A stretch of 64,000 nt of DNA from assembly GCF_014279655.1 (NCBI RefSeq), contig NZ_CP047946.1, forward strand, positions 496,001-560,000, written 5' to 3'. The position numbers and the translations under genes are program-made. Within the stretch, counting starts at the first letter, position 1. Each line of letters begins with the position of its first letter. The notes under the pieces are model-generated. The model was not told where the DNA came from. It searched no databases and saw only the letters and a program-made list of their open reading frames with translations. This document shows, piece by piece, positions 1 through 3,545 of the stretch. This DNA comes from Synechococcus sp. ROS8604 (GTDB lineage Bacteria; Cyanobacteriota; Cyanobacteriia; PCC-6307; Cyanobiaceae).

Positions 1-75
1 GGAGAGATCCAGCATGCGGCGATCAAACGCCTTGAGGCGAATGCGAATCTTTTGCTGAGCGATTGCGGTGGACAT
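1..75 (-). CDS. rpsJ: Ribosomal protein S10, N-terminal part only
   Basis: Only the first 25 codons lie inside the window; the gene runs off the left edge. The reading begins [18 protein letters not shown], the start of S10, a 30S head protein that also works in transcription antitermination as NusE. It is the last visible gene of the str cluster, downstream of tuf. Placing S10 behind tuf instead of at the head of the S10 operon is the usual cyanobacterial order. Two strong hairpins separate it from tuf. Confidence 0.9.
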
Positions 76-133
76 GGAAGCGCGAGAAAGTCCCTAAAAG
101 AGACGGAGAGGATGGATTTTCGAGGTTCGGACA

Positions 134-162
134 GCAAGAGCTCCAGAGGTTGGAGCTCTTGC
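134..162 (-). other. Hairpin between tuf and rpsJ (rpsJ-proximal)
   Basis: A perfect 12-bp inverted repeat, GCAAGAGCTCCA against TGGAGCTCTTGC, surrounds a 5-nt loop. No U-run follows on the minus strand, so this is not a standard intrinsic terminator. It could be an RNA processing site, a pause or stability element, or a binding site for autoregulation. Seen directly; the function is inferred. Confidence 0.7.
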
Positions 163-171
163 ACTCAAGAA

Positions 172-213
172 CTGTAAGGGACGGCCTCAACGCAGTCAGG
201 CTGTCCCTTACAG
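172..213 (-). terminator. Long hairpin just behind tuf, possible partial terminator
   Basis: A 16-bp stem (172-187 with 198-213, one G-U pair) encloses a 10-nt loop. It starts about 15 nt past the tuf stop codon. No U-tract of terminator length follows; the transcript continues with UUCUUG. With the second hairpin at 134-162 it makes a tandem structure before rpsJ, fitting partial termination or mRNA processing that sets tuf and rpsJ levels apart. Confidence 0.55.
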
Positions 214-228
214 GGATTGAGCATTAGG

Positions 229-1428
229 TCATTCGACGATCTTGGAGACCACGCCAGCACCGATGGTGCGACCACCTTCGCGGATCGCGAAGCGCATGCC
301 CAATTCCATGGCAACGGGGCAGATCAACTCACCAGTCATCTGGATGTTGTCACCAGGCATCACCATTTCAACGTTGGAGCCATCTTCCGCTGTGAATGCG
401 GTGATCTGGCCGGTCACGTCCGTGGTACGGATATAGAACTGCGGGCGGTAGCCAGCAAAGAAAGGAGTGTGGCGACCACCTTCTTCTTTCTTGAGAACGT
501 AAACCTGGCCCTCAAACTTGGTGTGAGGAGTGATCGAGCCGGGCTTCACAAGCACCATGCCGCGCTCGATGTCTTCCTTCTGAATGCCGCGAAGCAGAAG
601 CCCCACGTTGTCGCCGGCCATGCCCTCATCGAGCAATTTGCGGAACATCTCCACACCAGTAACGGTGGTTTTGCGGGGCTCTCGAATGCCCACGACTTCG
701 ACTTCTTCGCCAACTTTGACGATGCCGCGTTCGATACGACCCGTTGCGACGGTGCCGCGTCCAGTGATGGAGAACACATCTTCGATGGCCATCAGGAATG
801 GCTTATCGACTTCACGCTCGGGTTCGGGGATGCTTGCATCCACCGCTGCCATCAACTCTTCAATTTTGGCTTCCCATTCTGCTTCGCCTTCAATGGCTTT
901 CAGGCCAGAGACTTGAACAACAGGGATGTCGTCGCCAGGGAAGTCGTAGCTGGACAGCAACTCGCGGATCTCGAGTTCAACGAGTTCGATGATTTCCTCG
1001 TCGTCGACCATGTCGCACTTGTTCAGTGCAACAACCAAGGCGGGAACGCCAACTTGCTTGGCGAGAAGGATGTGCTCCTTGGTTTGGGCCATAGGACCGT
1101 CGGTGGCTGCGCACACAAGGATGGCGCCATCCATCTGAGCAGCACCCGTAATCATGTTCTTCACGTAGTCCGCGTGACCAGGGCAGTCAACGTGGGCGTA
1201 GTGGCGGGTATCGGTTTCGTACTCAACGTGAGCAGTATTGATGGTGATGCCACGCTCGCGCTCCTCAGGAGCACCATCAATGTCGGCATAGTTTTGAATC
1301 TCAGCCTGACCTTTCTTGGCGAGCACATTTGTGATCGCAGCGGTGAGGGTGGTTTTGCCGTGGTCAACGTGGCCAATGGTACCGATGTTGACGTGGGGCT
1401 TGTTCCTTTCGAACTTCTCGCGAGCCAT
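229..1428 (-). CDS. tuf: Translation elongation factor Tu
   Basis: EF-Tu carries aminoacyl-tRNA to the ribosomal A site as a GTP complex. The 399-aa protein has the P-loop GHVDHGKTT at residues 19-27, the DCPGH switch II motif and the NKCD guanine-specificity motif, followed by the two beta-barrel domains. The length is normal for cyanobacteria. The gene begins at ATG, 41 nt after the fusA stop, in the order rpsL-rpsG-fusA-tuf-rpsJ. A longer open frame on the opposite strand is a coding shadow. Confidence 0.98.
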
Positions 1429-1469
1429 TTTGGTAAAGAATCTAGGGTTGAATTAAGGAAGTGTAGAGA

Positions 1470-3545
1470 TCAGGAATTGCCCTGATTCTTGGAGATGATG
1501 GCCTCAGCGACATTGCGAGGAACATCCTCGTAATGACTGAACTCCATCGAGAAAATACCCCGACCCTGGGTCATGGATCGGAGTTCGGTGGCATAGCCGA
1601 ACATCTCGGCCAAGGGCACCTTGGAAGAGACTTTAGACGTTCCGTCGTCGACGGATTGGCCCTCCACCTGTCCCCTGCGGGAGGACAGGTCGCCGATGAC
1701 CGAACCGAGGAAATCCTCGGGGACTTCGACTTCGACCTTCATCATCGGCTCAAGAAGCACAGGGTTGCACTTCTTGACCGCATCCTTGAAGGCCATAGAG
1801 CCAGCAATCTTAAATGCCATCTCCGACGAGTCCACATCGTGGTACGAACCATCAATAATCGTGCATTTGACATCAATCAGGGGATAACCAGCAATCACGC
1901 CTGACTCGCAGGTCTCCTTCATGCCTTGCTCTGCTGGCTTGATGTACTCCTTGGGTACGGTGCCACCAACAACTTTGTTGATGAATTCAAATCCTGATTC
2001 AGGTTCGCCGGGCTCCATTTCGATGACAACGTGACCGTATTGGCCCTTACCACCGGTTTGACGGGAGAACTTCCCTTCCCCTTTCGATGAACCACGAATG
2101 GTTTCTCGATAAGACACCTGAGGAGCGCCGATATTGGCTTCCACCTTGAATTCGCGAAGCATGCGATCCACCAGGATTTCGAGGTGGAGTTCGCCCATGC
2201 CCGCAATCACGGTTTGACCTGTTTCCTGATCGGTACGAACGCGGAAAGTGGGGTCTTCTTCGGCCAATGAAACCAAGGCTTTGGAGAGTTTCTCCATGTC
2301 GCCTTTGGTTTTGGGCTCCACCGCAACGGAGATCACGGGCTCAGGAACGAACAGCGTTTCCAGAACAATCGGATCGTCTGTTGCGCAGAGGGTGTCTCCA
2401 GTGGTTGTGTTCTTGAGGCCCAGAACGGCGCCAAGATCGCCAGCACGCAAGGCATCAACTTCTTCGCGGTCATCGGCTTTAAGCACGACGAGGCGGGAAA
2501 TTCGTTCCTTGGTGTCTTTGGTGGAATTCAACACGTAGCTTCCTTTCTCAAGGACGCCTGAGTACATCCGCACAAAGGTGAGTTTCCCGTAGGGATCAGC
2601 CATCACCTTGAAGGCCAAAGCGCTGAAGGGTGCGTTGTCGTCAGACGGACGAACGGCTTCCTTCCCATTGGGGAGAAGGCCTTGAATGGGTGGCACATCG
2701 ATCGGTGCTGGCAGGTAATCGATAACAGCATCGAGAACCAGTTGCACGCCTTTGTTTTTAAAGGCTGAGCCACAAAGAACAGGAACCAATCCGTGCTTAA
2801 GAACGCCAGTACGAATCCCTTGCTTGAGTTCGGAATTGGAAAGTTCACCTGATTCGAGGAACTTTTCGATCAGTTCTTCATCGGTTTCGGCAACAGTTTC
2901 CATCAGAACATTGCGCCAATTGTCTATCTCCTCTTTCATGTTGGCCGGAACATCGGTGATTTCGATGTCTTGGCCTAAGTCATCCTTATAGATATGCGCC
3001 TTGTTTTCAACGAGGTCGATGATTCCGCTGAGCTCGCCTTCGGCTCCGATTGGAAGCTGAATAGGAACCGCATTGGCTTTGAGGCGATCCTTGATTTGGC
3101 CGTGGACCTTCAAGAAGTCGGCACCCGTGCGGTCCATCTTGTTGACGAACACCATGCGCGGCACGGAATAACGGTCGGCTTGGCGCCACACCGTTTCCGA
3201 TTGCGGTTGGACCCCGCCAACGGCGCAAAAGACTGCGATAACACCATCGAGAACGCGCATGGAGCGTTCCACTTCGATGGTGAAGTCAACGTGTCCAGGG
3301 GTATCAATAATATTGATCCGGTGATCATTCCAGCTGGTGGAAATAGCAGCGGCAGTAATAGTGATCCCACGCTCACGCTCCTGGGCCATCCAGTCGGTTA
3401 CTGCGGCACCGTCATGCACCTCACCAATTTTGTGCACCACACCGGAGTAGAACAGAATCCTCTCAGTGGTGGTTGTTTTACCAGCGTCAATATGGGCTGC
3501 AATACCAATATTTCTGACGCGTTCCAGGGGAAAGTCGCGTGCCAC
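1470..3545 (-). CDS. fusA: Translation elongation factor G
   Basis: EF-G drives ribosomal translocation and, with RRF, ribosome recycling. The 691-aa protein starts [14 protein letters not shown] and shows the GTPase P-loop AHIDAGKTT at residues 17-25, DTPGHVDF and NKMD, then the tRNA-mimic domains III-V. The start codon is GTG at 3545-3543; the family N-terminus fits it exactly and no better ATG exists. It lies in the str cluster between rpsG and tuf. A hairpin sits in the rpsG-fusA gap. Confidence 0.98.

Follow-up and report, generated by a model that had tools for sequence, protein, structure and literature searches.

BoxA, an element of nascent rRNA, is bound by NusB together with NusE, the latter being ribosomal protein S10, the product of rpsJ. 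The use of such an element to control the gene of a Nus factor has been described in E. coli: according to excerpts of Baniulyte et al. 2017 (PMC5725501), NusB/E at a boxA before suhB represses translation, Rho-dependent termination following, and a putative gamma-proteobacterial boxA is reported before rpsJ in three genera. In the cyanobacterial 16S-23S spacer, boxA is given as GAACCTTGAAAA in PMC8461337, the conserved domain after it being CTGCATA, and PMC9769826 names that sequence the antitermination box A of marine picocyanobacteria. PMC13289151 states that Rho is missing from cyanobacteria.

The locus analysed here is the gap between the tuf and rpsJ genes in a stretch of 64,000 nt (64 kb) of the Synechococcus sp. 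ROS8604 genome, called the window below. It resembles the suhB type of autoregulation, as far as the excerpts describe it, in that a boxA matching the boxA of the host rRNA lies upstream of a Nus-factor gene, here that of NusE/S10. Unlike the suhB and gamma-proteobacterial cases in the same excerpts, it belongs to another phylum, its boxA consensus is of the GAACCTTGAAAA type and not GYTCTTTAANA, it is placed behind tuf and does not open an operon, nearly all gaps have a hairpin following tuf, and the site recurs in 24 of the 32 other families sampled. Cyanobacteria being reported without Rho, the Rho step of suhB should also be missing, and the autoregulation that we propose is deduced from sequence. 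The 12-nt boxA is of the same type as in the boxB-boxA arrangement of the 16S-23S spacer (PMC8461337, in part). Autogenous control around the S10 gene, here a proposal, recalls the E. coli S10 operon leader bound by L4 (PMC10931766), but effector, structure and gene order differ from what the extracts of that source describe. The kind of control is already known and rpsJ cases have been predicted in gamma-proteobacteria; what sets the cyanobacterial case apart is its phylum, consensus and operon position, the hairpin that goes with it, and the lack of Rho reported for cyanobacteria. Among the open-access matches listed, none reported a boxA before a cyanobacterial rpsJ or an S10/NusE autoregulation.

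The gap covers window positions 76-228 (153 nt) and both flanking genes are on the minus strand. Taken with its flanking codons (75-231, minus strand), it folds at -61.8 kcal/mol against -38.3 kcal/mol for shuffled sequences, and 0/200 shuffles folded as well. The preliminary description had reported two strong hairpins without U-tract in a gap of about 150 nt read in one transcript. Size and single direction agree with our measurement, both hairpins are real by their fold energies and z-scores (Table 1), and the lack of U-tracts was confirmed by an intrinsic-terminator scan, which found no terminator-like site in the gap of this genome: neither hairpin 1 nor hairpin 2 is a GC-rich hairpin followed by a U-tract. 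The two stems had been given as 12 and 16 bp. The former is indeed perfect; the latter is unbroken only if the plus strand is folded, hairpin 1 consisting on the transcribed strand of an 11-bp and a 4-bp stem, 1x1 mismatches and, outermost, a clamp of 5-6 bp. Similarly, the interval 134-213 proposed for the pair contains hairpin 2 but truncates hairpin 1 and omits both boxA and hairpin 3. No promoter-like site was found by a promoter scan of window positions 1-1600, and an Rfam search of positions 1-2000 returned two sub-threshold snoRNA scores only, both outside the gap. When positions 1-400 were compared with the 2.88-Mb genome (DNA search, E <= 0.001), only the segment itself and its own inverted repeat matched.

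Table 1. Features of the tuf-rpsJ region, in window coordinates
Feature	Position	Strand	Description
rpsJ (ribosomal protein S10 = NusE), 5' part	1..75, ATG 75-73	-	translation; TIGR01049 rpsJ_bact, 151.3 bits
hairpin 3, small stem separating boxA from rpsJ start	90..104	-	-5.8 kcal/mol, z -3.1
boxA GAACCTCGAAAA, putative NusB-S10 binding site	117..128	-	41 nt before rpsJ; 17.1 bits
hairpin 2	134..162	-	12-bp perfect stem, 5-nt loop, -21.1 kcal/mol, z -6.5; boxB-like position, optional
hairpin 1	164..221	-	starts 7 nt past tuf stop codon; -30.5 kcal/mol, z -6.4
tuf (EF-Tu), upstream gene	229..1428	-	399-aa ORF; TIGR00485, 747.8 bits

In the gaps of relatives, a block GAACCTCGACAAT or GAACCTTGAAAAY is kept shortly ahead of rpsJ while the hairpins vary. 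We took this block to be the boxA of the cyanobacterial 16S-23S spacer. The copy in our gap, GAACCTCGAAAA, is of the same motif type as the boxA of the genome's own 16S leaders and 16S-23S spacers, whose rrn copies read GAACCTGGACAA and GAACCTTGACAA, and S10 is encoded directly beside it, as judged by model match. The pattern GAACCTNGANAA has 8 matches in the genome, 2 in 16S leaders, 2 in 16S-23S spacers, 1 in the tuf-rpsJ gap and 3 within ORFs, the last being a 95-aa ORF that occurs twice and one 342-aa ORF named LysR-like by reading. As a reversed control of GAACCTNGANAA also gives 8 genome matches, the evidence for boxA rests on the positions of the matches and on the matrix test described below, by which the gap site is the single match of at least 11 bits on either strand of the 64-kb window. 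A looser boxA pattern, run in 30 genomes, was set aside as too degenerate. The putative partner is widespread, NusB (TIGR01951) being found in 97/97 genomes searched, of which 96 above cut-off, our own genome included.

The 12-position matrix was built solely from 43 boxA sites of rrn operons (21 from leaders and 22 from spacers), which had been collected with a pattern whose design drew on the gap block and on the cyanobacterial spacer boxA. These sites came from 24 of the 26 genomes with rrn regions, the 16S landmark not being found, and so no site obtained, in the 2 other loci; 2 of the 45 rrn matches were discarded as spurious. From 259 loci we obtained 250 tuf-rpsJ gaps, 244 of them distinct. 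The 9 loci dropped without a gap comprised 6 of family f22, 1 of family f32 and 2 at contig ends. With a cut-off of 11 bits, which was our own choice, the sense strand matched in 178 of the 244 distinct gaps and the antisense strand in 0/244, while shuffled gaps matched in 24/4880 cases (17/4880 in a repeat run). Lowering the cut-off to 8 bits lets 3/244 antisense gaps also pass. Raising it to 14.8 bits leaves 164/244 gaps and 4 shuffles, and at 15.6 bits, approximately the weakest rrn score, there remain 112/244 gaps and 0 shuffles. In the 162 loci available at greater length, 118 sense matches fell in the 22 kb of gap sequence versus 7 sense matches in the other 512 kb or so, and 10 antisense matches were counted over the whole 535 kb. 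Conservation extends beyond the matrix to positions +13 and +15, with 1.35 and 1.11 bits (39 sites of families other than that of the window); the bases touching the motif are conserved to a lesser degree, and those farther out mostly carry less than 0.5 bits. A separate observation concerns the rrn operons: in 17 of the 21 16S leaders, a second block lies a few nt past boxA, AGTTTAGGAACT in the window's family and AGTTTGAAAG-like elsewhere, and this block may be what corresponds to boxC in cyanobacteria.

A boxA of the rrn type thus precedes rpsJ, on the sense strand only, in most of the cyanobacterial families sampled. It was detected in all 29 members of the window's genus, in 99/114 gaps of the window's family and in at least one gap of 24/32 other families (39/58 loci). 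Among loci from named records, 45 of the 78 parsed (out of 80) carry it, among them Calothrix, Dolichospermum, Microcoleus, Rivularia and Snowella. It is absent or unrecognisable in 8/32 families, namely f4 (0/5), f8 (0/1), f13 (0/3), f16 (0/6) and f19, f22, f28 and f29 (0/1 each); the f8 gap has a weak GAACCTATCCAA that lies below cut-off. Families f4, f13, f16 and f22 had been sampled more on purpose after these misses, and no new f22 gap was parsed. In 6/7 loci of f22, S10 was not found within about 900 nt downstream of tuf, and gene order or spacing may differ in this family. Similarly, 0/7 gaps pass in the Prochlorococcus-like genus g18, and many named Prochlorococcus records also fall below the cut-off. 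The rrn boxA is present in f4, f13, f16, f22, f28 and g18, so that the loss concerns the rpsJ site. Several of the failing Prochlorococcus gaps have TTAACCTCAATCA or TTAACCTTTGATAAT blocks, and Prochlorococcus-like gaps in which no boxA scores often have in common TTAACCTCAATCAYYTA or TTAACCTTTGATAATCTA, followed by a hairpin nearer rpsJ. Both sets of blocks are perhaps decayed or altered boxA.

We consider it rather probable that the tuf-rpsJ gap carries an S10 feedback site, at which S10-NusB bound to boxA represses the translation of rpsJ. The preliminary description had hesitated between a processing or partial-stop element and a feedback site, and the feedback part of that reading is backed independently by the boxA beside the hairpins, which had gone unnoticed. 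The boxA itself is observed; the binding of S10-NusB to it and the repression of rpsJ are what we infer. In such a circuit, S10 made beyond the needs of 30S assembly and rRNA transcription would bind, as S10-NusB, to the rpsJ boxA and would block the loading of ribosomes onto rpsJ. As cyanobacteria are reported to be without Rho, the circuit could not end in the Rho step known from E. coli suhB, and repression would then have to act on translation only, or through pausing. The predicted structure is compatible with an accessible site: when gaps are folded alone, the mean unpaired probability is 0.58 for boxA vs 0.39 for the rest of the gap, higher in 158/178 gaps, and boxA is predicted to be more unpaired than GC-matched stretches in 153/178.

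The distance between the end of boxA and the rpsJ ATG ranges from 6 to 149 nt, with a median of 41 nt over the 178 sites. In the other families (39 sites), the median is 19 nt and the distance is at most 35 nt in 34/39, which would place boxA near or within the footprint of the 30S subunit. In the window's family (99 sites), the median is 43 nt, and a small hairpin often lies between boxA and the start codon; there the feedback would need a loop to RNA polymerase or an effect on the hairpin. A stem comparable to hairpin 3 is found in 81 of the 125 boxA-to-start spacers of at least 30 nt, as compared with 41-46 in shuffles. Several points tell against the feedback proposal. A control site for S10 would be expected to face steady selection, and yet the site is missing in 8/32 families and in g18, although several of these lineages retain an rrn boxA; only 112/244 gaps pass at about the weakest rrn score; a distance of 35 nt or less to the AUG is rare in the window's family (5/99), and over all distinct sites it is seen in only 63/178; and the conserved blocks that lie past boxA in rrn operons are almost entirely lacking.

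The same motif type being common to rrn leaders and spacers, and boxA being placed after tuf and ahead of rpsJ, one could suppose that it loads NusB-S10 with other Nus factors on RNA polymerase and favours processivity through rpsJ, as a positive antitermination of the rRNA type. Several features make this unlikely. BoxA lies downstream of hairpin 1, so antitermination at hairpin 1 is impossible; rpsJ is a short ORF; and Rho, which would have to be antagonised, is reported absent from cyanobacteria (PMC13289151, in part). Moreover, the elements that accompany the rrn boxA are nearly all missing from the gaps. The block trailing boxA in 17/21 rrn leaders occurs at 0/39 gap sites of the other families and 1/99 of the window's family. 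CTGCATA, which follows boxA in 22/22 spacers, occurs at only 1/138 tuf-rpsJ sites (0/39 and 1/99, respectively). The tuf-rpsJ gaps nearly all lack the conserved downstream rrn blocks expected of a full rrn-type antitermination element, and the full rrn complex may not form at rpsJ.

The feedback proposal leaves a separate role to the hairpins, of which the tuf-proximal hairpin 1 is the better conserved. Its covariation was examined in 29 genus members (28 distinct rows). Changes on both sides were found in 8/12 pairs, and the covariation score was 0.358 vs 0.212 in shuffled alignments, a value reached by 0/500 shuffles; once the pairing partners are slid, the score is at most 0.144. The number of further pair types (14 vs 14.6 in shuffles) showed no excess. 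Covariation, suggested as a check in the preliminary description, is thus borne out for hairpin 1 by score and double changes and not by the count of pair types. Within 90 nt downstream of tuf, 172/178 distinct gaps with boxA (52-54 in shuffles) and 62/66 distinct gaps without it (12-15 in shuffles) contain a strong hairpin, which starts at a median of 17 nt after tuf in the former vs 48 nt in the latter. Under a loose rule, a U-tract stands behind the strong hairpin in 33/172 boxA gaps and 11/62 other gaps.

Hairpin 2, located 5 nt upstream of boxA, behaves otherwise. Among 9 close relatives, double changes occur in 3/12 pairs and the covariation score is 0.255 vs 0.141. In 64/178 gaps (14-25 in shuffles), a hairpin ends no more than 8 nt from boxA; the likeness to the spacer boxB-boxA, where a hairpin stands a few nt upstream in 13/22 cases, is to this extent occasional. 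Hairpin 2 is local to some lineages. Its reading as an obligatory boxB was rejected on the count of 64/178, and the back-to-back pair does not stand as a conserved unit, the hairpin adjoining boxA being optional.

Hairpin 1 could plausibly have a processing or a 3'-end-protecting role. It would probably cap the 3' end of the tuf message or be a processing point there, and in the minority of gaps with a U-tract a partial termination might take place. If hairpin 1 separates the tuf message in this manner, the output of EF-Tu would be independent of the repression of rpsJ. One may then ask whether the hairpins alone matter. On this view, hairpin 1 would be a leaky terminator, or a stem for processing and stabilisation, by which the ratio of EF-Tu to S10 is set, and boxA would be a bystander or a mark for processing. 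The covariation of hairpin 1 within the genus and the presence of a strong hairpin in nearly all gaps, with or without boxA, albeit with a later start in the latter, are in line with this explanation. It is nevertheless improbable, because boxA is better conserved in sequence than the bases around it and is retained where the hairpins change, and because a U-tract follows just 33/172 strong hairpins in boxA gaps. Finally, that the conserved block is a promoter element, with TTGACA as the -35 box, or a ribosome-binding sequence seems hardly credible: some copies do read CCTTGACAAT, but many read TTGAAAA or TCGACA, the same block lies inside rrn leaders and spacers, its end is no more than 35 nt from the AUG in 34/39 sites of other families, too close for a -35 box, and window positions 1-1600 are without a promoter-like site, so that the promoter reading was rejected on the position of the block and the promoter scan.

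Extended to most cyanobacteria, the proposed S10 feedback would take the form of a loop free of Rho, in which free S10 and NusB are shared by the rrn boxA and the rpsJ boxA while the tuf hairpin shields the synthesis of EF-Tu. We put forward this extension tentatively, as a scheme whose chances are a little below even. Whenever rRNA synthesis slows, S10-NusB would shift to the rpsJ boxA and S10 would be shut off. Such a shared use of S10 would tie a factor of rRNA transcription to the output of ribosomal protein. If the feedback is true, control through boxA works without Rho and reaches beyond the gamma-proteobacterial cases, and the gap would offer an easy way into the question of how S10, EF-Tu and rRNA are kept in proportion in cyanobacteria.

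Two further observations were made around the hairpins. The 3' arm of hairpin 1 and its tail (window 171-181, minus strand) contain the invariant bases UCCnnUAnnnU in 29/29 genus members, and these are possibly a cleavage site. An E. coli-type boxA (CUUUAACA), noticed by eye in the same tail, was dropped, the cyanobacterial rrn boxA being of another type. In one gap of family f23, a hairpin of 20 bp lies 8 nt ahead of boxA and has GAACCTGG in its arm; its stem may conceal a second sequence resembling boxA.
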